Shown: positions 4,731 through 29,067 of the stretch, piece after piece
Position numbering within the stretch: the first letter of the stretch is position 1
Layout: each line of letters opens with the position of its first letter
Origin: Martelella mediterranea
GTDB lineage: Bacteria > Pseudomonadota > Alphaproteobacteria > Rhizobiales > Rhizobiaceae
Direction: 5' to 3'
Length of the DNA stretch: 40,869 nucleotides
Assembly: GCF_004342225.1 (NCBI RefSeq)
Contig: NZ_SMAR01000032.1
Coordinates: 1 to 40,869, forward strand
The notes under the pieces: model-generated
Seen by the model: only the letters and a program-made list of their open reading frames with translations
Told to the model about the DNA's origin: nothing
Database searches by the model: none
Position numbers and translations under genes: made by a program

Positions 4731-4897
4731 CCCCCTCTGTCCTGTGCGCCTGAGATTATTATCCCTTCGGCCAGCCCGCCTTGAAGTTCCAAGGAAAGCC
4801 TTGTCTCCAGAGTTATCGATTGCGTGCTGGTCCTTTTGCCTGAGAGTTTCCGGGGCAGTTGCTCCTTCGGCCTCGTCCTGAGTGACGACTTCTCCCG
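4731..4897 (-). promoter_or_regulatory. Tandem glycine riboswitch of gcvTHP
   Basis: On the minus strand two glycine aptamers follow one another. Aptamer 1 (about 4897-4807) starts CGGGAGA and contains GCCGAAGGAGCAACTGCCCC, then GGAAACTCTCAGGCAAAAGG and ACTCTGGAGAC. Aptamer 2 (about 4812-4731) contains GGCCGAAGGGATAATAATCT, then CAGGCGCACAGGACAGAGGGG. These are the conserved CCGAAGG and CTCAGG-x-AAAGGAC blocks of the family. Glycine binding normally raises gcv expression. No obvious intrinsic terminator lies between the aptamers and the TTG start with its GGAGG, so control at translation initiation is plausible (inference). Confidence 0.95.
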
Positions 4898-4914
4898 GCA
4901 CGCTTTTGGCTGTG

Positions 4915-13243: not shown

Positions 13244-13328
13244 GCGGTCGTGGCGGAATTGGTAGACGCGCAGCGTTGAGGTCGCTGTGGGGCAACCCGT
13301 GGAAGTTCGAGTCTTCTCGACCGCACCA
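13244..13328 (+). tRNA. tRNA-Leu(GAG)
   Basis: An 85-nt class II tRNA. The acceptor stem GCGGTCG pairs with CGACCGC. The anticodon stem CAGCG/CGCTG encloses the loop TTGAGGT, giving anticodon GAG (leucine CUC/CUU). The long variable arm contains GGGGCAACCC, the T-loop is TTCGAGT, and the discriminator A is followed by an encoded CCA. The prophage integrase gene lies 55 bases downstream on the opposite strand, so the 3' half of this tRNA is the likely attachment site. Confidence 0.97.
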
Positions 13329-20046: not shown

Positions 20047-20764
20047 AGACCGCAAAGCCGTTCGCAAGGCCTTTCTGAAATTCTATCGCCAGTGGCCCAC
20101 CTATGGCGAAGACAGCGACGAACGCGCCTTTGCCGAATGGCAGGCTTTGACGGCTGAAGAGCGTGATGCTGCAACTTCGATGCTTTCAGGCTTTCTGACG
20201 TTTGAGGCGATGCATGGTCGGCAGGTAAAATTTGCCGCCAGCACCTACCTGAAGGATCGCCGCTGGCAGGGTGTGCCGGAAGGGCTTTCCAGCGCATCTG
20301 GTCCGGTGAATGCTGCGACCTATGGCAAGGCATGGATGGCTGAACGGTTTGCGCGACTTGGTGCACCGTGTGCCCGGCTGCCGTCGCTGACACGGTTTCA
20401 GGAATGGGAAATCCGGCAGGGGCATGTTGACCGGAATGCCCTGTGGCTTGAGCGCCAGCGCAAGATGGGCTGGCCGCACGTCAACGCGATGCATGAACAG
20501 GCCGTGGTTCAGCCCGCTAAGGGCGCACGTGTTTCGCCGGAGATTGCGCTTTTAGGTTCTGCTTTTGAGGCGGTGCGTGTGGGCAGCGATGAATGGGACG
20601 CTTGGATGCGCGAACACGCTGAATGCGGCTGGCCGTGGCTGCCTGACACCGGTCGGCATGAATGGGTTTATTTCCCGCGCCTTGATGGGGGAAAGCCTTC
20701 TGATGCGCTGTCGGCATTCTTCGAAAAGCTGGAACAGATGCAGGGCAGGGAGGCAGCTGAATGA
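20033..20764 (+). CDS. Phage early protein of unknown function
   Basis: A 243-residue protein starting MTKAEDRKAVRKAFLKFYRQ. GGAGG is five bases before the ATG at 20033; the frame is open much further upstream, but that part is the shadow of the previous gene. The segment ERDAATSMLSGFLTFEAMHG with STYLKDRRW resembles proteins of alphaproteobacterial prophage replication regions (recollection only). Tryptophan-rich C-terminus, about 11 Trp overall. Its stop overlaps the NusG-like start by four bases. Confidence 0.72.
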   Translation: MTKAEDRKAVRKAFLKFYRQWPTYGEDSDERAFAEWQALTAEERDAATSMLSGFLTFEAMHGRQVKFAASTYLKDRRWQGVPEGLSSASGPVNAATYGKAWMAERFARLGAPCARLPSLTRFQEWEIRQGHVDRNALWLERQRKMGWPHVNAMHEQAVVQPAKGARVSPEIALLGSAFEAVRVGSDEWDAWMREHAECGWPWLPDTGRHEWVYFPRLDGGKPSDALSAFFEKLEQMQGREAAE

Positions 20765-21396
20765 TAGCTTATGGTGAGATTGCAGCAAACGCCTTTGAGG
20801 CCGTTCCGGAGAAGTTCGAAGACCGGATGCGGCGCATTCGCAGGCAGTATCGTTTCCGCCTCAAACAGCCGGTTGGTGATGATGCGCCGTGGTTCGTGCT
20901 TTGTGTCAGAACCGGCTGCGAAAAACGCGTTGAAGAGGCATTGGGTGAGGCAGGTGTCGAGGTGTTTGTGCCGATGCGCAAGGGCAAGGCACGCAAGCGG
21001 CGCGGGCGCTGGCTGCCACCGAAGGATGAGGTTTTGATGATTGGCTATGTTCTGATCCGGTGCGTTTGTTCGAATGAGACGATGAACGCGCTGATGAGCT
21101 TTGAGCATGTGGCTGGCATACTGGGTGGCTGGGAAAAGCCATTCGCTGTCGGCCCTGAGAAGGTGATGAATATCAATTGCCTGGCGCGATCCGGTGAATT
21201 CAATTATGAGCGCGCTGTTGCGATCTCGCTGAAGGCTGGTGAGGTTATCCGGATAGCGGGCGGAATTTTTTCGGGCCTGTGTGGTGAGGTTGTTACGCCC
21301 AATGGCACGGGCAAAGGCGACGTGGTGGTCGAGGTGGAAATGTTCGGTCAGAAAACACCTGCAATTTTACCTCTTGCAATGATCGAAAAAATGTGA
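20761..21396 (+). CDS. Phage-encoded NusG-family protein (candidate antiterminator)
   Basis: A 211-residue NusG paralogue. The NGN domain, about residues 43-145, begins WFVLCVRTGCEKRVEEALGE with AGVEVFVP (69-71 is FVP). A KOW-like domain, about 158-195, contains LKAGEVIRIAGGIFSGLCGE. NusG/RfaH proteins ride on RNA polymerase and change pausing and termination. It is the last gene of the early operon, where lambda has Q, and two copies of a stem-plus-terminator element follow before the late genes. A role as late-gene antiterminator is inference. It is not the host nusG, which is expected in the secE-nusG-rplK cluster. Confidence 0.85.
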   Translation: MIAYGEIAANAFEAVPEKFEDRMRRIRRQYRFRLKQPVGDDAPWFVLCVRTGCEKRVEEALGEAGVEVFVPMRKGKARKRRGRWLPPKDEVLMIGYVLIRCVCSNETMNALMSFEHVAGILGGWEKPFAVGPEKVMNINCLARSGEFNYERAVAISLKAGEVIRIAGGIFSGLCGEVVTPNGTGKGDVVVEVEMFGQKTPAILPLAMIEKM

Positions 21397-21438
21397 ATGC
21401 TTTGGGACAGGATGCTTCGGTTCTTAGTGGAGCTTGCT

Positions 21439-21524
21439 CTCACGCCCGAAACCCTGCCCTTACGATAGCCGATCGGCAATGCGATTAAGGGCCAGTGCGT
21501 GAGCTATATCTTTTTCCTTTTTTT
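21439..21524 (+). terminator. Possible terminator of the early phage operon
   Basis: A two-part stem forms from CTCACGC (21439-21445) with GCGTGAG (21497-21503) and, inside it, GCCCTTA (21456-21462) with TAAGGGC (21486-21492). The inner loop holds the palindrome GCCGATCGGC. After seven bases a T-rich tract TTTTTCCTTTTTTT runs from 21511 to 21524. The stems are interrupted, so strength is uncertain. The T-tract could instead belong to the promoter of the element that follows. Confidence 0.45.
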
Positions 21525-21527
21525 GTG

Positions 21528-21608
21528 TAATATGATGTTCACAACCAATGGATGGGTGCGCCGTTCGACCTGGTTGTGCGATACGCGGATCGCTGAGGCG
21601 GTCCGCGT
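21528..21608 (+). ncRNA. Structured element, copy 1 (stem plus terminator-like hairpin)
   Basis: After the -10-like TATGAT (21531-21536), CACAACCA (21540-21547) pairs with TGGTTGTG (21571-21578). The apical core AATGGATGGGTGCGCCGTT (21547-21565) differs from copy 2 at one base in 19. A second hairpin, ACGCGGATCGC with GCGGTCCGCGT (21583-21608), follows with only a weak T-tract (TCTGTCTTTT). An indel of one base in the loop breaks any shared reading frame while both stems are kept, which favours RNA structure over coding. Confidence 0.55.
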
Positions 21609-21689
21609 TCTGTCTTTTGCGGTAAAGGAAGACACCGAAAACTCAGAGAGTGCGCAAAGAGATAACGGTTGTCTCGCCACCTGTCGGAG

Positions 21690-22835
21690 CTACTGGCTGC
21701 GAACAGCATTTCTTGCCATTGCGGCAATCAGGTCGGTTCGGGTGACGATCCCGATAATTCTGTCACCTTCAAGAATGGGAACGGCATCAACTTCACCCTC
21801 GGCCATCATCGGAAGCAGGGCGGCAACCGGGGTATCTTTTGCTGCCCTTGGGCCGGTGGTGGACATGATCCGACGGGCGTTCACTGTTTTTTCGCGGTCT
21901 CTGGCGAGTAACCGCCGGAATGCCAGTGTGAAGTCACTATTTTCCTGAAAGCCGGGTTCTCGGGCCTGATTGATCAGATGGATCTGGAATATTACACCAA
22001 GAAATTCATCATTCGTGCCAATGACGGGCAGTGAGGTAAAGCTGTGGTATCTGAACAGGTCCGCAACTTCTTTTAACCCGGTGTCCGGCCCGACTGTGAT
22101 CAGATCTCTGGACATTATGTCCTCTGCTTTCAGAGGTGTTGTCGTGTGGGTCGCGGCTTGTAGTTCCGCAGCTCCTATCAATCTGGCCAGATCTTCGACG
22201 CCAAGGTTGAATGACTGGCGATATCTTTCAAGGATCTCTGTCAGCTCACCCTCAGACAATCCCAGCCGTTCCGATGGATTGCGATCTTCTGTATGGTGTT
22301 TGCTTGGATCATCGAACTGGCGGAACGGGTAACGTCGCCCGGTGAGACGGGCATATGCAGCTGCGACAAGGACAAGTGCTACGGTACCAATCGCGACAGG
22401 CGCCAGCGCGAACCAGAAACCCAGTTGATCAATCGCCTCCGGGCTCATGACGGCCGTCATTGCGACAGCACCTGCTGGCGGATGGACTGCACGGCAGAGA
22501 ACTGTTGCGATGATGGAAAGACCGACAGCCAGCGCCACACTCAACGTCAGATCTGAAACAGCCATTCCGACGGCCACGCCGATCAGGGCTGCTATTGTGT
22601 TGCCGACGATGGCAGACCAGGGCTGTGCCAGTGGGCTATTGGGGACAGCGAACAGCAAAACCGACGTCGCGCCGAAAGGGGCAACCAGATAAAGCCCGAG
22701 TTGCAAATCTATAGCCGGTGATAACAGGAACAAACCCACCAGACCAAGGCCGACGAATGCACCGATCCCTGCGCGGAAAGCTTCTTTTGAAGATGCATGT
22801 GAAACGGCTGGACCAAAAGAGCGGTGAAAGTGCAA
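21690..22835 (-). CDS. HPP-family membrane protein with tandem CBS domains
   Basis: A 381-residue inner-membrane protein. The N-terminal half (about 18-165) has several hydrophobic segments and the family motif HPPAGA at 118-123. The C-terminal half (about 240-375) is a pair of CBS domains (EDIMSRDLITVGPDTGLKEV; PILEGDRIIGIVTRTDLIAA), probably an adenine-nucleotide sensor. Plant plastid HPP proteins have been linked to nitrite transport; the bacterial substrate is not established. The start is TTG at 22835 with AGGAG 9 bases upstream. It runs against the phage genes and is bracketed by two copies of the structured element, so it is probably cargo. Confidence 0.88.
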   Translation of the reverse strand: MHFHRSFGPAVSHASSKEAFRAGIGAFVGLGLVGLFLLSPAIDLQLGLYLVAPFGATSVLLFAVPNSPLAQPWSAIVGNTIAALIGVAVGMAVSDLTLSVALAVGLSIIATVLCRAVHPPAGAVAMTAVMSPEAIDQLGFWFALAPVAIGTVALVLVAAAYARLTGRRYPFRQFDDPSKHHTEDRNPSERLGLSEGELTEILERYRQSFNLGVEDLARLIGAAELQAATHTTTPLKAEDIMSRDLITVGPDTGLKEVADLFRYHSFTSLPVIGTNDEFLGVIFQIHLINQAREPGFQENSDFTLAFRRLLARDREKTVNARRIMSTTGPRAAKDTPVAALLPMMAEGEVDAVPILEGDRIIGIVTRTDLIAAMARNAVRSQ

Positions 22836-22977
22836 GCCGGGCTACTCCTGTTTGATACGGGTCTGGCATGTCAAAGGATTGATAATTCTCAATTGCCGGA
22901 CTCAGAGAAAGGCAGGCTTCTAGATTATCCGTCAGGTTTTCACCAATAGGCAAGCTATCGGCATTTCGCCATTTTGA

Positions 22978-23064
22978 TGTATATTAGAATTCACAACTAA
23001 TGGATGGGGGCGCCGTTGAATTTGTTGTGCTGAGAAGCGGATCGCGTATGCGGTCCGCTTTTTT
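22978..23064 (+). ncRNA. Structured element, copy 2 (stem plus strong intrinsic terminator)
   Basis: A -10-like TATATT (22980-22985) precedes CACAAC (22992-22997), which pairs with GTTGTG (23024-23029). The apical core is AATGGATGGGGGCGCCGTT (22999-23017). A 10-bp hairpin AGCGGATCGC/GCGGTCCGCT (23036-23059, loop GTAT, one G-U) runs into T5 at 23060-23064, a classic terminator. The predicted product is about 75 nt if transcription starts near 22992. It ends 30 bases before the first late gene, so readthrough would be needed for late expression from this promoter. Confidence 0.6.
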
Positions 23065-23093: not shown

Positions 23094-23834
23094 ATGATTT
23101 CCACACAGATAGAGATTGATCTGACGCGCTTTGAGGCAAAGCTGACATCTGCCCAGCGCCGTGAGCTGCCGAAGGCGGAAATGCTGGCGCTGAACTGGCT
23201 GGCCTATGACGGGATGAAGGCTGTCCGGTCAAAGATGAAGGTGGTGTTTGACCGGCCAACGCCTTACGCGATGCGCGGGATCATCTATGACAAGGCCAGT
23301 CTTGCTGACCGGACGGCGTCTGTTGTTGCCACCGGGGACCGGACTAAGGGCGGGCTTCCGGCCACAGCCTTTCTTGGCCCGGAAATCCATGGCGGGATGC
23401 GTCGGCACAAAGCCTTCGAGGAGCAGCTCATCGGGCGCGGACTGATGGCACGCAATGAGGTGGCTGTGCCAGCGCGGATGGCGCCGCTTGATCGCTACGG
23501 CAACATGTCGAAGGGGTTTCTAAACCGTGTGATGCGGGATTTGCGGATTGATTATCGCGGAGCAGGTGCAACGCGGGTGCCTAAGAACAGTTCGCGGCGC
23601 AAACGCAAGGCCAAACCCAACCAGTATTTTGTGCCGCAGGGCAGGCCGGATCTGATCAAGGGTATCTGGTTTTCCGGACGCGGTGAGGGCGGCAGAGAAT
23701 TCTATCCGGTCATCTTGTTTGTGAAGGCGACGTCCTATCGTGAGCGGCTGAAGCTGCAGAAGATTGTGACTGAGCTTGTGCGCAGCAAGAAAGACCGAAC
23801 GTTTAAGCGGGCATTCCGGAAGGTGTTTGACTGA
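23094..23834 (+). CDS. Phage protein of unknown function (structural-type)
   Basis: A 246-residue basic protein at the head of the late region. Recognisable conserved stretches are MKVVFDRPTPYAMRGIIYDK, GKGG-like TKGGLPATAFLGPEIHGGMR and VPARMAPLDRYGNMSKGFLN. I recall similar proteins near terminase genes of lambdoid phages of proteobacteria. Function is not known to me; a role in packaging or tail completion is only positional. Ribosome-binding site is weak (GAGG 11 bases upstream). Confidence 0.75.
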   Translation: MISTQIEIDLTRFEAKLTSAQRRELPKAEMLALNWLAYDGMKAVRSKMKVVFDRPTPYAMRGIIYDKASLADRTASVVATGDRTKGGLPATAFLGPEIHGGMRRHKAFEEQLIGRGLMARNEVAVPARMAPLDRYGNMSKGFLNRVMRDLRIDYRGAGATRVPKNSSRRKRKAKPNQYFVPQGRPDLIKGIWFSGRGEGGREFYPVILFVKATSYRERLKLQKIVTELVRSKKDRTFKRAFRKVFD

Positions 23835-23840
23835 GTGATA

Positions 23841-24125
23841 TCAGGCAGGCTGATCGATGTCGGTTGGGCTTGATGCGCGGCGGGCGCGGATAAGCTCGCC
23901 CATGAAGCGCCACTTCACTTCAACAGCCCCGGCTTCAACGGCAAGCTTTCGGCGCGAAACCGGAATATCGTAATGTTCTTTGGCGGTACCGGCATACTGC
24001 ACCCAGCGACGCTGAAGGCCGATCTGGTCAGCCATGGCATGCAGCTCCTCGCTGGTGTCGGCTAGCATATGGCACATGACCATGCCTTTGAACGGCCAGC
24101 GGGTATCATCGACGTAAACAGCCAT
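23841..24125 (-). CDS. DUF4031 domain protein
   Basis: A 94-residue small protein beginning MAVYVDDTRWPFKGMVMCHM and continuing with LADTSEELHAMADQIGLQRR. This is the DUF4031 signature, including acidic DD and the HM pair. Function unknown. It is encoded against the late genes in the gap before the small terminase gene and has its own upstream space (24126-24354). Like the other leftward genes here it is probably accessory cargo. Confidence 0.85.
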   Translation of the reverse strand: MAVYVDDTRWPFKGMVMCHMLADTSEELHAMADQIGLQRRWVQYAGTAKEHYDIPVSRRKLAVEAGAVEVKWRFMGELIRARRASSPTDIDQPA

Positions 24126-24354: not shown

Positions 24355-25017
24355 ATGGAAAACGCACCGGAAAGCATGAGCAAAGGTGACTTTGCCAACC
24401 TGATTTCGGTGTCGGGCGCGTGTGTTTCGCAATACCTGAAATCAGGCAAGATCTACGGCGATGCGATTGTCGGTCAGGGCCATCGTGCGCGTATCCGCCC
24501 CGACATTGCGATCAGGCAGCTTGAGCTTTCCATTGACCCTTCACAAGGTTTGGGGGCCAACGGAAAAGCCTTCTTGAACGGTGGATCGGGTCGGCAAAAA
24601 ACACAAAAAGAGAAAGACGCTTCTGAGGCTCCGGCGTCAGAGCTTCCGCTGCATCAGCCGTCTGCTCAAGACGCAATGGCCGAACAGCTGGCGCGTGAGC
24701 GGCTTCGCCAGCAACAGATCAAAACCGGCCAGATGGAACGCCAGGAGCTGGAAGAGGCGGGGATTTATACGCGCAGCGAAGACGCCCGGCGCGATATGGG
24801 ACGCGGGATCTCGGAGGCGTTCAAGGTGATGGAGCAGGGGATCCCTGATCTTGCGACAGCACTTGCTGAAGAGTTCGGTTTGCCGCAGCGGGATCTGCAA
24901 AAGGCACTGGCGCGCCGCTGGCGCGGGATCCGCTCAAAGGCGGCTGCCGGTTTCAGGGATATCCGGGATGAAACACCGGAGATGGTTGAAGACGAAGAGG
25001 CGTATGAAACAACATGA
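24355..25017 (+). CDS. Terminase small subunit (Nu1-like)
   Basis: A 220-residue DNA-recognition subunit of the packaging motor. The N-terminal FANLISVSGACVSQYLKSGK is a winged-helix-like Nu1 module. A helical centre (QLARERLRQQQIKTGQMERQ) and a helical C-terminus that would contact the large subunit follow. It overlaps the GpA-type large subunit by four bases (ATGA), the normal lambda-like pairing. Confidence 0.88.
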   Translation: MENAPESMSKGDFANLISVSGACVSQYLKSGKIYGDAIVGQGHRARIRPDIAIRQLELSIDPSQGLGANGKAFLNGGSGRQKTQKEKDASEAPASELPLHQPSAQDAMAEQLARERLRQQQIKTGQMERQELEEAGIYTRSEDARRDMGRGISEAFKVMEQGIPDLATALAEEFGLPQRDLQKALARRWRGIRSKAAAGFRDIRDETPEMVEDEEAYETT

Positions 25018-27068
25018 CGATGCTCTTCAATCCCGAACGGCTGATGTATGAGGTACTGGCCGATGCCTGCGAGCCGCCGCCACCGGTCGATTATCTGGTG
25101 TGGGCGAAAGATAATATCGTTTTTTCCGAACGTATTTCCGCGTTTCCGGGGCCATACCGTGAAGACATGTTCCCGTTCTTCTCGGAGATACTGCGGGCGT
25201 TGTCGCCGGATGATCCATGCTCGATCATCTCGCTTGCCAAATCGGCACAGGTGGGTGGAACCGTTCTGGCGAACATCTTTCTGCTTGGAACGCTGGATCT
25301 CGACCCGTGCGATTTTCTCTATGTCCATCCGACAGAGGAGAATGCCTCGCGCTGGTCGAAGACAAAGCTGATGCCGTTGTTGCGGGAAACCACGTCTGTC
25401 CGTGCACTCTTTCCCGAAGCCGGGCGCGATGGCGGCAACTCGATCCTTTACAAAGAACGCGTTGATGGTCGTGGCGCCATTCAGGCAGCCGGAGCCAATT
25501 CTCCGGCCGGGCTTTCGATGATCTCGCCACGGGCACAGGTGCAGGACGACCTGGCCAAATGGAACAAGAATGATGCCGGTGATCCGGAGGCACAGGCAGA
25601 CAGCCGGTCGAAGGCATTCTTCAACCGCAAGGTTTTTAAGATATCGACCCCGCTGATTGCGCCGGGCTGCCGGATTACGGCCAACTATCTGGCCGGGACG
25701 CAGGAGCGCTATCATGTGCCGTGTCCGCATTGCGGTGAGCTGCAGGTGCTGGAATGGGAAAACATGCGCGATCATATTGATCCGCAACACCCGGAGAAGG
25801 CGCACTTCTGCTGTGTTCATTGCGGTTGCGAAATCCATGAACATCACCGTGCATGGATGGTCGATCCGGCCAATGGTGCAAAATGGATTGCCAGATATCC
25901 GGAGCGCGCGCGCTATCATCGCTCGTTTCATATCTGGGTGCCGTATTCACCGCTTGAAAGCTGGGAGTCGATTGCGCGGGCATGGCTGACCGTTCAGGCC
26001 GGTGGTGCTGACGACAAGGAAAAGGGCGCCGGTGCTGAACAGGTGTTCTTTAACGATACGCTGGGTCTGGCCTTTGAAGCGGACAATAAAGCGATTGACT
26101 GGGAAGACCTGCGCGACCGGGCTGAAGAAACCGGCTTTAAACGCGGTGTTGTGCCGGGGGACATGCTGGCTCTGACGATTGGCATTGATGTCCAGGGCGA
26201 CCGCGTTGAATGGCTTTTGCGCGGCTGGGGCCGCAACAAGATGAGCGCGGTGATTGATTACGGTGTGATCGACAGCCGGGCGGGCAGTCATCTTCCCGGC
26301 TATCGTGAGCATTCAGGCCATATCAGCGAGGTGGCGGTGATGGCCGCGCTTGACCGGCTGATCGAAAAACAATGGCCGGATGAGAACGGCAAACTGCGAA
26401 GCGTTGACCGGATCGGGATCGACGGCAACGCTTATACAGAGGATGTCTGGTTCTGGGCGCGGCGCCATCCGCGTTCAAAAGTGATCATGGTTCGCGGCGA
26501 TAACCGTGATGCAGCGCCGATGCTCAGCCATGTGAGCGAGTATGATAAGCGCGGCAGACGGAAAAAGCAGAAGTGGTCGAGCCGGTTTTATAACTTCAAT
26601 GCTTCAGTGATGAAGATGGGGCTTTACCGGGACTTTCGCAAAGATGATCCCGACCAGCCGGGCTTCATCCGTTTTGCCAGTGGCCTTGGTGATGACTTTT
26701 ATCAGCAGGCAACCTCGGAAGTGCGCATTCAGGAAAAGGATCGCAACGGCTATCCGCGCTGGCGGTGGAAGCTGCCGGACGGACAGCGCAACGAGGTTCT
26801 GGATATGCTGAACCAGTCGCGGGCTGCAGCCATCCGGCTTGGCGTTCCTTACTGGAGCGATGATGAATGGGATGCCCGGGCAGAAGCGCTTTCAAAGAAA
26901 GAGCCGGAAGCGCAGGGCGATCTTGAGGATCTGATCGGCAGTCTTGCAACAGCGGTTAATGCGGTCAGCCAGGCGGGAAAACCAGAACCGGATAACAGAC
27001 CATCAGATCGCGTGGCGGCTGCCATGCGACGGGCAGAACGTGCTCATCAGCGAAACCAGCAGGACTGA
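25014..27068 (+). CDS. Terminase large subunit (GpA family)
   Basis: A 684-residue packaging ATPase and nuclease of the lambda GpA family. The Walker A variant KSAQVGGT is at 76-83 and the acidic QVQDDL near 178 may act as Walker B. Zinc-binding pairs CPHC (237-240) and CCVHCGC (266-272) follow. GIDVQGDRVEW (390-400) starts the RNase-H-like nuclease domain, with Asp392 a likely metal ligand. The C-terminus is basic and helical. Three bases separate its stop from gpW. Confidence 0.96.
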   Translation: MTMLFNPERLMYEVLADACEPPPPVDYLVWAKDNIVFSERISAFPGPYREDMFPFFSEILRALSPDDPCSIISLAKSAQVGGTVLANIFLLGTLDLDPCDFLYVHPTEENASRWSKTKLMPLLRETTSVRALFPEAGRDGGNSILYKERVDGRGAIQAAGANSPAGLSMISPRAQVQDDLAKWNKNDAGDPEAQADSRSKAFFNRKVFKISTPLIAPGCRITANYLAGTQERYHVPCPHCGELQVLEWENMRDHIDPQHPEKAHFCCVHCGCEIHEHHRAWMVDPANGAKWIARYPERARYHRSFHIWVPYSPLESWESIARAWLTVQAGGADDKEKGAGAEQVFFNDTLGLAFEADNKAIDWEDLRDRAEETGFKRGVVPGDMLALTIGIDVQGDRVEWLLRGWGRNKMSAVIDYGVIDSRAGSHLPGYREHSGHISEVAVMAALDRLIEKQWPDENGKLRSVDRIGIDGNAYTEDVWFWARRHPRSKVIMVRGDNRDAAPMLSHVSEYDKRGRRKKQKWSSRFYNFNASVMKMGLYRDFRKDDPDQPGFIRFASGLGDDFYQQATSEVRIQEKDRNGYPRWRWKLPDGQRNEVLDMLNQSRAAAIRLGVPYWSDDEWDARAEALSKKEPEAQGDLEDLIGSLATAVNAVSQAGKPEPDNRPSDRVAAAMRRAERAHQRNQQD

Positions 27069-27070
27069 GA

Positions 27071-27307
27071 ATGGCACCTTTGACAGACGAACGGCTGACG
27101 CTGGAAACCCGGCTCGGCGAGGCGAAGCTTGCGCTTCACAAACTTGAGACCGGCCAGAGCGCTGTAACGCTTTCCTATGATGGCGAGAGCATCACTTACA
27201 GCGGGGCGGATCGGGCATCACTCAGGGTTTATATCCGCAGCCTTGAAACACAGCTCGGACTTCGCGGGTCGGCACGTCCACGCGGGCGGGGAGCAATCTT
27301 CGGATGA
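27071..27307 (+). CDS. Head-tail joining protein gpW-like
   Basis: A 78-residue protein of the gpW family, which closes the filled head and binds the portal. The helical start LTLETRLGEAKLALHKLETG, the hairpin VTLSYDGESITYSGADRASL and the final helix VYIRSLETQL fit the fold. It sits between terminase and portal as in lambda, and its stop overlaps the portal start. Confidence 0.88.
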   Translation: MAPLTDERLTLETRLGEAKLALHKLETGQSAVTLSYDGESITYSGADRASLRVYIRSLETQLGLRGSARPRGRGAIFG

Positions 27308-29067
27308 CAGTGGAAATTTACGGGCCGGACAGCCAGCCGCTTCCCTCCGGGTTGCGTCAGGCCGCCCGGATGCAGGCTGCACGCAATCGGCAAATGGCAG
27401 CAACAGTCTCAGGTGAGACGGTGACCCGGGCCGCCTATCAGGGTGCATCCTATGATCACCCAAGTTTTGCCGGATGGCGTGCGGGCAATTATTCCGGCCA
27501 GTCAGCGCTTTCGCAATCGCGTTCGACGCTGGTTGACCGGCTGAACGATGTCGCGCGCAATGACGGCTGGGGTGCGGCTGGCACTTCACGCCTTGTCGAT
27601 AATATCATTGGGGCAGGCTGGAAGCTTGCAGCGCGACCGAACCATACATCGCTGAACCTCACCTTCGATCAGGTCGAAGAGGTGGCATCACAGATTGAGG
27701 GGCTATGGCGTGACTATACGCAGGACGTTGACATGTGGTGCGATGCCGAGCGCACAAAGAACATGGCCGGGATCCTCGGTCTTGCTGCCAGAACGCGGTT
27801 CGGGCCTGAGGGTGAAAGCTTTGGCGTGATCGTCTGGCAGGATGATGCGCCGCTGTTCCAGACGGCAGTGCACATGATTGATCCGGCCCGCTGTTCCAAC
27901 CCTAAAGGTACGCTGGACACTGAATATCTGCGTGATGGTGTCGCCATTGATGGATATGGCGCGCCAGTCGGCTATCACTTCCGCAAAAGTCATCCCGGTG
28001 ATGTCTATGCGGGCAATACGCAGTTCTGGTCATGGGAATATGTCAGCCGGGCTACCGAATGGGGCCGACCGATTGTCGTTCATGCCTTTGATCCGAAGCG
28101 TCCGGGCATGACACGCGGTGCGTCTGACTGGGCGCCGATCATGCGCTCGATCAAGCAGTCCACGGATTATGAGGATTTTGAAAGCCAGGCGGCGATGCTG
28201 AATGCGATCATGGCCGCGTTTATCGAAACGCCGTTTGATCCGGAAGAAATGATGAATGCGCTTGATGCCGATGGTGGCGAAGGCACGATCGGGAAGATCT
28301 ATGGCGAGATCTCCGAGGCGCAGAAAGCCTATTACGGGGCTGCGCCGATCAATCTGCCCGGTGTCCGGGTCAACACGCTTCTTCCCGGCGAAAAGGCGGA
28401 ACTGACCAAGCCGGAACATCCGAATGCGAATTTTGAGGTGTTTGTGAATGCAGCCCTTCGCAAGGTCGCCTCTGCCGTGGGGCTGACCTATGAACAGCTG
28501 ACGATGGACTGGAGCCAGGTGAACTATTCGTCCGCGCGTGCAGCCCTTCTGGAAATCTGGCGGGGCTTTACGACGAAGAAAAGCAGCTTTGCGGCCCAGT
28601 TCATGGCCCCGATCTACCGGGCATGGCTGGAAGAAATCTTCGACAAGGGACTGATTAAACTACCGGAAGGGGCGGTGTCGTTCGAGGAAAACCCGGCTGC
28701 ATGGTGTCATGCGGACTGGATCGGGCCGGGACGCGGTTGGATTGATCCGCTGAAAGAGGCGCAGGCTGCCGGTGAGCGTCTCGACCGGAGACTGACAACG
28801 CTACAGCAGGAATCAGCTGAACAGGGCCGGGACTGGAAGATGGACGCGGATCAACTGGCGCGTGAGGCGCGCTACTATGAGCGGCTTGGCCTGAAACATC
28901 CCTCAACGTTTGAAGGTTCGCGACCGGCTCGCAAAGGCGGACGACAAAACAGTGATGTGGATCCGGACACAGAGCCTGAGAACAATGTGAACGGGCATTC
29001 GGAGAAGTCAGCACGCGCATCGCGGCATCCACTTGGCATTCCGCAGACAGGAAGGCAGAAACGATGA
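27304..29067 (+). CDS. Phage portal protein (lambda family)
   Basis: A 587-residue lambda-type portal (gpB) forming the dodecameric ring at one capsid vertex. Conserved stretches include RNDGWGAAGTSRLVDNIIGA, FGPEGESFGVIVW and ASAVGLTYEQLTMDWSQVNY with SSARAALLE. The C-terminal tail is polar and low-complexity. It overlaps gpW and the protease by four bases on each side. Confidence 0.95.
   Translation: MTVEIYGPDSQPLPSGLRQAARMQAARNRQMAATVSGETVTRAAYQGASYDHPSFAGWRAGNYSGQSALSQSRSTLVDRLNDVARNDGWGAAGTSRLVDNIIGAGWKLAARPNHTSLNLTFDQVEEVASQIEGLWRDYTQDVDMWCDAERTKNMAGILGLAARTRFGPEGESFGVIVWQDDAPLFQTAVHMIDPARCSNPKGTLDTEYLRDGVAIDGYGAPVGYHFRKSHPGDVYAGNTQFWSWEYVSRATEWGRPIVVHAFDPKRPGMTRGASDWAPIMRSIKQSTDYEDFESQAAMLNAIMAAFIETPFDPEEMMNALDADGGEGTIGKIYGEISEAQKAYYGAAPINLPGVRVNTLLPGEKAELTKPEHPNANFEVFVNAALRKVASAVGLTYEQLTMDWSQVNYSSARAALLEIWRGFTTKKSSFAAQFMAPIYRAWLEEIFDKGLIKLPEGAVSFEENPAAWCHADWIGPGRGWIDPLKEAQAAGERLDRRLTTLQQESAEQGRDWKMDADQLAREARYYERLGLKHPSTFEGSRPARKGGRQNSDVDPDTEPENNVNGHSEKSARASRHPLGIPQTGRQKR

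Follow-up and report, generated by a model that had tools for sequence, protein, structure and literature searches.

A structured RNA element directly behind a phage nusG paralogue as a candidate antitermination site of Rhizobiaceae phages

In phage lambda the gene of the antiterminator Q stands last in the early region, and a terminator lies before the late genes. LoaP of Bacillus velezensis is a NusG paralogue that, as outlined in PMC12691694, binds to a small hairpin of the dfn and mln leader RNA, and this hairpin is needed for readthrough of the intrinsic terminator before the operon. RfaH, likewise a NusG paralogue recruited to particular operons, uses ops, a 12-nt DNA element in the account of PMC7819879, and the put RNA of phage HK022, which alters the polymerase ahead of terminators, appears to act alone according to PMC9378689. 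Here we describe a locus in a stretch of 40,869 nucleotides of Martelella mediterranea (assembly GCF_004342225.1, contig NZ_SMAR01000032.1, positions 1–40,869 of the forward strand), called the window below, in which the gene of a phage NusG paralogue (20761–21396, plus strand) is directly followed, 3' of its stop codon, by a conserved structured RNA termed element A (21397–21508, plus strand). Read from the sequence, the order is early genes, nusG, element A, terminator, and late genes. The locus thus has in common with lambda a putative antiterminator gene at the end of the early region and a terminator before the late genes, and with LoaP a NusG paralogue, a hairpin in the nascent RNA, and an intrinsic terminator before the operon; its predicted anatomy appears nearer to LoaP than to any other known system considered. 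We consider it probable that it works as a LoaP-like switch, in which the paralogue would bind element A and carry the polymerase through the terminator into the late genes.

When the sequence 3' of nusG was compared among relatives, a conserved feature stronger than the duplicated repeat treated below was found to extend from the nusG stop codon to CAGTGCGYRAGCTATG. Element A measured 112–177 nt in 50 representatives, which remained from 88 sequences after removal of near-duplicates. The 3' domain (n = 50) combined a GCCCUGA/UCAGGGC helix with an inner hairpin, which varied, and an end hairpin, which was almost invariant. The corresponding helix of the window, GCCCUUA/UAAGGGC, occupied 21456–21492 (plus strand) together with its inner hairpin in alignment A1, and was followed at 21493–21508 (plus strand) by the end hairpin AGUGC-GUGA-GCUAU, the loop of which is mostly GNRA or UACN in relatives. 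The RNA model R1, for which the window was among the source sequences, matched the 3' domain of the window with 51 bits (7.2e-10, filters off), and the next best match in the window had 8 bits. In the 3' domain, 91.4% of the alignment cells were paired, compared with at most 44.2% when the structure was slid, and 58 cells were doubly changed compared with 18.5 in shuffled alignments, none of 500 of which reached the native number. The full element was aligned from 24 sequences picked for a common 5' motif (Rhizobium-type element) and comprised 43 pairs in 10 helices; 94.1% of the cells were paired against at most 47.3% when slid, a percentage favored by the fact that the structure was the consensus of the alignment itself, and doubly changed cells numbered 75 against 24.2 (standard deviation, 4.8) in shuffled alignments (0/500). 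Among 45 distinct elements found through the protein and fitted to the RNA model, there were 30 doubly changed cells compared with 7.4 in shuffled alignments (0/500), and 6 doubly changed pairs compared with 3.0, a number reached by 6 of 500 shuffles. The ratio of G-U to A-C was 20:4, 18:6, and 12:4 in well-aligned, hand-picked helices of alignments A1, A6, and A5, respectively, and was weaker across all helices (30:22, 28:25, and 20:7). The G-U excess in the well-aligned helices suggested that the plus strand acts as RNA. No family of Rfam 15 covered element A at its gathering score in the window or at the 18 further and 6 phage loci scanned, the best sub-threshold matches being BjrC68 (14.1 of 39 bits) and BjrC174 (13.1 of 45 bits), and the candidate assignment of element A to a known Rfam RNA was rejected. 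Element A looks new, that is, an apparently undescribed structured RNA as judged from these comparisons.

The loops of the end hairpin were collected with a pattern in which the four loop bases were free and the AGUGC and GCUAU flanks fixed; the first scan had allowed only GYRA loops. Among the matches listed, this loop-free search yielded at least 68 distinct newly found elements, 23 with GNRA loops (GAAA 20, GCAA 2, and GAGA 1), 40 with UACN loops (UACA 20, UACU 15, and UACC 5), and 5 with GANA loops (GACA 3 and GAUA 2). Both scans together gave at least 119 distinct elements, with 74 GNRA loops (a number raised by the pattern of the first scan), 40 UACN loops, and 5 GANA loops, and neither UACG nor another UNCG loop occurred among these 119 in the matches listed. 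When the flanks were free apart from the model, as in the protein-found set, a four-base loop followed by the GCUAU end was present in 42 of 45 elements; one loop was UAUA, and the flanks varied in a few cases. This swapping of tetraloop classes over a fixed stem indicated that the sequence behaves as an RNA hairpin. Replacement of GNRA by UACA was seen in the end hairpins of L246, L249, and L067.

The association of element A with nusG was examined in both directions; wherever this was tested, element A and nusG shared a strand, with element A on the 3' side. Starting from the protein, 59 viral loci were identified with a profile built from seven NusG paralogues, and 58 of them had the 3' domain of element A approximately 100–110 nt downstream of nusG on the same strand; the single locus without it, L292, ends 114 nt past the nusG match. 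These 58 loci represented 45 distinct elements, and 48 of them were on contigs that were new relative to the first RNA-pattern scan. Element A was also found 3' of nusG in all six named phages tested (Nostoc phage Nsp-JY10, Agrobacterium phage Rivra, Sinorhizobium phages phi2LM21 and phi3LM21, Rhizobium phage PPF1, and Mesorhizobium phage vB_MseS-P1), with E values of 6.3e-8 or better; annotated genes overlap it in PPF1 and vB_MseS-P1. These six came from 21 records matching one NusG query, the other 15 being a duplicate PPF1 entry and Listeria, Salmonella, fecal, and uncultured phages. The record of Nsp-JY10 (L245, PP395642.1) bears a cyanobacterial host label, yet has a NusG paralogue and element A of the Rhizobium type; a mistaken label or a mixed culture could account for this. 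Starting from the RNA, an exact 16-mer search gave 105 viral stretches with nusG just upstream in 76; among the other 29, five scored above 50 bits as element A and had less than 330 nt of upstream sequence, and 24 scored below 29 bits and were taken as chance matches. The RNA-pattern search showed nusG upstream of 132 of 143 viral elements among the matches listed, the remaining 11 having less than 600 nt of upstream sequence. With a stricter pattern, 84,980 named genomes gave 43 stretches, 41 with nusG just upstream; the two misses were a chance match in Doudnabacteria (25 bits) and L218, which has less than 330 nt of upstream sequence. We take 42 of the 43 to be Rhizobiaceae in the wide sense, and the genomes included Rhizobium, Agrobacterium, Shinella, Neorhizobium, Ensifer, Hoeflea, Martelella, and several species of the Brucella/Ochrobactrum type. 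Exact patterns, which overlook UACN and GAAA loops, matched 17 of 394 genomes of the family and 1 of 397 of the order (reversed control, 0). When 385 genomes of the class were searched with the RNA model, with the best 15 candidates scored per genome listed, only the genome of the window itself matched. A DNA blast search of the locus against 50,697 phages gave no match.

The protein encoded by nusG in the window consists of 211 amino acids and was placed in the NusG superfamily by its NGN and KOW domains according to Pfam (PF02357, 1.6e-17), PHROG (phrog_6386, 'transcription antiterminator', 3.8e-37), and structure. The AlphaFold2 model (pLDDT 88.9) showed an NGN domain and a KOW domain folded as a beta barrel, not as an alpha hairpin. 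Curated NCBIfam models were run on three proteins, those of the window, L125, and L076, and the scores were below the cut-off for every model: 41.9, 44.0, and 52.5 bits, respectively, for LoaP (NF033641, cut-off 125 bits); 28, 21.2, and 47.8 bits for RfaH (TIGR01955, 144.5 bits); 62, 64.2, and 71.2 bits for UpxY (NF033644, 100 bits); and 56.9, 67.1, and 50.2 bits for housekeeping NusG (TIGR00922, 135.7 bits). A Foldseek search placed NusG structures at the top, and PDB entry 8f5g, deposited as 'NusG-RNA complex', had the highest query TM score (0.44) among the rows listed, the domain arrangement being uncertain; we take this entry to be the LoaP-RNA complex. A weaker NusG-like match (30%) was present elsewhere in the genome of the window (G000, contig C15).

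Terminators behind element A were sought in 82 loci, which remained from 129 after removal of near-duplicates. A strict scan found an intrinsic terminator within 120 nt past element A in 49 of the 82 loci, compared with 45 of 820 shuffled sequences and 3 matches in windows inside nusG, and a looser scan found one in 60 of the 82. The terminator stem began at a median of 22 nt past element A, and in 43 of the 49 loci no more than 28 nt past it. Past the terminator came a start codon and, in the named phages, HNH, tail, or terminase genes, preceded in some of them by small hypothetical genes; the gene 5' of nusG in the window and the named phages was a replication-initiation or helix-turn-helix gene or was unannotated. 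The LoaP-type arrangement of an RNA hairpin and then an intrinsic terminator before the target operon was thus found in those 49 loci. Pairing between element A and the 5' arm of the terminator was similar in native and in swapped combinations (15.8 and 15.6, respectively; p = 0.85; 60 loci), so that switching of the riboswitch type with the terminator arm, tried as a candidate, gave no signal; this lack of pairing favored a trans-acting factor. At three loci a tRNA gene lies directly 3' of element A with no terminator (L095, 685–758, minus strand, by Rfam; L204 and L225 by eye).

A preliminary description of the window had drawn attention to a duplicated stem-and-terminator element between nusG and the late genes, had read each copy as preceded by a -10-like box, and had proposed, by analogy with lambda Q, that it is an antitermination site or small RNA working with the NusG-like protein. 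The duplication itself was borne out: the two copies, at 21538–21609 and 22990–23061 (plus strand), are 72 nt long, 75% identical, and 1452 nt apart, and share a 28-nt core with 2 differences. The core, with up to 3 mismatches, occurred at only these 2 sites in the 4.3-Mb genome (reversed-pattern control, 0). Each copy folded into two hairpins, as had been described, with energies of -38.7 kcal/mol for copy 1 and -32.3 kcal/mol for copy 2 and z values of -4.67 and -4.01, respectively, and none of 200 shuffles was equally stable; the one-base loop indel between the copies is also real. Copy 1 comprises a hairpin at 21540–21578 and a terminator-like stem at 21583–21608 with a weak T tract; its 11-pair stem was listed by a consensus terminator scan, and the tail TCTGTCTTTT is a poor T tract. 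Copy 2, as read from the sequence, comprises a hairpin at 22992–23029 and a terminator stem at 23037–23058 with a T run at 23059–23064. By direct reading this is, in agreement with the earlier account, a good intrinsic terminator, with a run of six Ts and a distance of 30 bases to the gene at 23094; the consensus scan did not list copy 2, probably since its stem pairs into its T run, and showed little excess in the window as a whole (25 terminators compared with 19.6, standard deviation 4.1, in shuffled sequences). The -10-like boxes were not supported: promoter-like sites, scanned with a sigma-70 consensus that may not fit this host, numbered 10 compared with 7.7 (standard deviation, 3.0), which is not above chance, and one lay 5' of copy 2 and none 5' of copy 1. 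The scan gave no support to the lambda Q layout with a late promoter, 43 of the 49 terminators found beginning within 28 nt of element A, and a late promoter inside the repeat was set aside as a candidate because the sites were not above chance. An RNA-level site at the terminator before the late genes, working with the NusG paralogue, remains the best reading of the region; the duplicated element as the general site was given up, since element A tracks nusG across dozens of phages. The repeat core matched only one viral contig, with a nusG identical to that of the window, and the loop motif of the repeat occurred in 0 of 72 non-Martelella loci. The preliminary description was therefore right in kind and wrong in place, and mentioned neither the stretch directly 3' of nusG nor the gene lying between the two copies.

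That gene, at 21690–22835 on the minus strand, encodes 381 amino acids with HPP transmembrane and CBS domains (PF04982, 1.2e-44; PF00571, 7.2e-21) and matched no PHROG. A sister prophage in the same genome (L036, contig C51), with an 87% identical nusG, lacks the HPP gene and passes from nusG through a single unit to the late gene. The sequence 5' of this unit resembles the region before copy 1; copy 2 is resembled by the sequence 3' of it and by the right half of the unit, the left half having diverged. Homologues of the HPP gene were found at the same junction in two other Martelella phages, L051 (77% identity) and L062 (73%). In L062 terminator units flank the gene on both sides, sharing a short leader sequence behind the terminator, and L051 has one only downstream. 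An extra gene absent from the sister phage at the same junction, with terminator signals on its flanks, is what is expected of a moron; like known phage morons it is a foreign gene between phage operons, here on the opposite strand and bracketed by terminator units. Because the sister prophage without cargo has one unit and other HPP carriers have units flanking the gene on one side or both, the duplication most probably arose along with the insertion of cargo between the early and late regions or insulates that cargo, and the repeat most likely represents a terminator unit that flanks this predicted insertion on either side. The HPP-CBS membrane protein gene is a recurrent cargo between nusG and the late genes of Martelella phages, and a different sequence at this junction in L057 (by eye) suggests an insertion hotspot. 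Downstream of the repeat, the first late gene encodes a minor tail protein (phrog_1924; 23094–23834, plus strand), followed by the small and large terminase subunits (24355–27068) and the portal (27304–29067); a DUF4031 gene on the opposite strand within the late region (23841–24125, minus strand) is another likely cargo gene. Rfam also identified a glycine riboswitch at 4818–4907 (minus strand) and a tRNA gene at 13244–13325 (plus strand), the latter of which may mark the prophage boundary.

In the switch that we propose, the early operon would end in the NusG paralogue, and its transcript would run on into element A and then reach an intrinsic terminator that immediately precedes the late genes. 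Before the paralogue is made, the polymerase would halt at this terminator. The paralogue, once made, would recognize element A in the nascent RNA, most likely at the terminal hairpin, and would stay on the polymerase, so that transcription would pass the terminator and reach the head and tail genes, in the manner of LoaP and its leader hairpin; binding, recruitment, readthrough, and the early/late timing are steps that we infer. In the window, the HPP-CBS gene would have been inserted between element A and the late genes with a terminator unit on each side, which would give the observed duplication. The locus differs from LoaP in that the targets are phage late genes rather than antibiotic operons, that element A is an RNA of 112–177 nt with several helices rather than a small hairpin, that its loops are mostly GNRA or UACN, with no UACG among the matches listed, rather than UNCG, and that it lies behind the paralogue's own gene, the product of which scored 41.9 bits against the LoaP cut-off of 125. 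It differs from RfaH and ops in that element A is an RNA with covariation, and in that the protein scored 28 bits against a cut-off of 144.5 and has a KOW domain modeled as a beta barrel. Unlike lambda Q, qut, pR' and tR', it has a NusG-family protein and an RNA rather than a promoter-embedded DNA site, and the sigma-70 consensus scan found no late promoter above chance between nusG and the terminator.

Several observations weigh against this switch. No terminator was found in 33 of the 82 loci by the strict scan or in 22 by the looser one, the strict set includes a few doubtful hairpins (for example, in L036, L122, and L171), and in the members of the window clade without cargo roughly 50–120 nt separate element A from the terminator. 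The 5' domain of element A is reduced in the window clade, and its folding energy is unremarkable (z = 0.02 in the window, -0.33 in L066, and -0.14 in L245); because these z values are about 0, folding energy was dropped as support, and the case for element A rests on covariation. Since element A adjoins nusG, their linkage could be plain co-inheritance. The best Foldseek matches of the protein were housekeeping NusG, not LoaP. Finally, among 33 loci with this kind of NusG, the window included, 15 had element A and 18 did not (two of the latter, L045 and L056, holding only part of the gene match), which indicated that the protein family does not need element A everywhere.

Other functions of element A were considered, and the likelihoods that we attach to them are not mutually exclusive. 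The RNA might act on the polymerase by itself, with the NusG paralogue as a helper or mere neighbor; its size, its structure, and its place immediately before a terminator would suit this, and the put RNA of HK022, as presented in PMC9378689, is a known phage precedent for an RNA altering the polymerase ahead of terminators. We consider this unlikely, because a self-sufficient RNA would not need the association with NusG, to which there was no testable exception in either direction; put appears to act alone, whereas element A was always found with a NusG paralogue where this could be tested. Because it begins at the nusG stop codon and lies downstream of nusG on its strand in all cases tested, element A might instead be a processed small RNA or form a stabilizing 3' end of that message, without taking part in antitermination. 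Such a 3' end would not need terminators placed mostly within 28 nt past the element (43 of 49) with late genes behind them, and we regard this explanation as improbable. Since a structured domain directly before a terminator is the usual layout of riboswitches, and since no Rfam family fits element A, it could also represent a new class of ligand-sensing riboswitch or attenuator that switches base pairs at the terminator; this appears quite improbable, as the complementarity of element A to the terminator arm did not exceed that of the swapped controls given above and the element sits between a transcription factor gene and virion genes. The HNH and terminase genes just downstream of element A in several phages raised the further idea of a DNA packaging site (cos or pac), but the strand-specific wobble pairs in the well-aligned helices, albeit weaker over all helices, and tetraloop classes that swap as those of RNA do make this explanation extremely unlikely.

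A different signal may operate in the Martelella phages, in which a GRYGGGTG hairpin rather than element A would recruit the protein, as an ops-like element of an RfaH-like protein; this would apply to that clade only and is compatible with a role of element A elsewhere. The hairpin of the repeat has this GRYGGGTG loop, which reads GATGGGTGCG in copy 1 (21551–21560, plus strand) and GATGGGGGCG, with one base altered, in copy 2 (23003–23012, plus strand). Among the 18 loci without element A, GACGGGTG was present within 250 nt 3' of nusG and before a terminator-like hairpin in 10, and GRYGGGTG lay within 120 nt of element A in 6 of 10 unique loci of the Martelella type, compared with 0 of 72 others. 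The combination of GACGGGTG with a stem of the GCGGRYCG type gave 21 matches in 13 Martelella genomes, 10 of them directly behind nusG paralogues with and without element A (reversed control, 6), and for a second type of terminator there were 2 matches, each of them 3' of nusG, and none in the control. A GRYGGGTG loop before terminators is loosely reminiscent of RfaH, for which PMC7819879 describes the use of a short DNA hairpin, ops. On the other side, the motif is absent from 4 of the 10 Martelella-type loci and from the 72 others, where element A alone precedes the terminator, it is altered in copy 2 of the window (GATGGGGG), and 11 of the 21 combined matches lie elsewhere than behind nusG. 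We therefore regard recruitment by this hairpin in place of element A as a minor possibility even in this clade; the GRYGGGTG hairpin could serve the clade as a loading signal beside element A or in its place, and in this respect the preliminary description may still hold. In several Martelella genomes a block with a nusG paralogue but no element A is present many times (L039–L043, L048–L050, L052–L055, L058, L061, L063, and L064); homology between these copies mostly stops within approximately 300 nt behind nusG, possibly indicating another mobile element or phage remnants. In L049 the paralogue is followed by a gene resembling UDP-glucose/GDP-mannose-type dehydrogenases (by eye), an RfaH-like context.

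In the titles and abstract openings of the papers listed by searches of an open-access library, no RNA behind a phage nusG was described, and no account was found there of temperate phages of nitrogen-fixing or plant-associated Alphaproteobacteria switching on their late genes via a NusG paralogue; the available text of the phi2LM21 and phi3LM21 paper (PMC5537653) has 0 occurrences of NusG, antiterminat-, or terminator. Element A is probably new, and its probable mode of action is a variant of antitermination by NusG paralogues. A broader proposal, which we hold to be evenly balanced between right and wrong, is that these loci represent a new RNA class together with a new late-gene switch of temperate Rhizobiaceae phages, in which the paralogue would recognize a large RNA behind its own gene, act on the continuation of its own message, and make the polymerase terminator-proof for the virion operon, the GRYGGGTG hairpin having been added before the terminator in Martelella as a further loading signal. 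If the proposed switch is true, the covariance model of element A would mark the starts of late operons in Rhizobiaceae prophages, one protein, one RNA of approximately 150 nt, and one terminator within approximately 1 kb would form a compact test system for the RNA-guided finding of operons by NusG paralogues, and RNA-directed antitermination by NusG paralogues, known from LoaP of Gram-positive bacteria, would extend to phages and to the Alphaproteobacteria.

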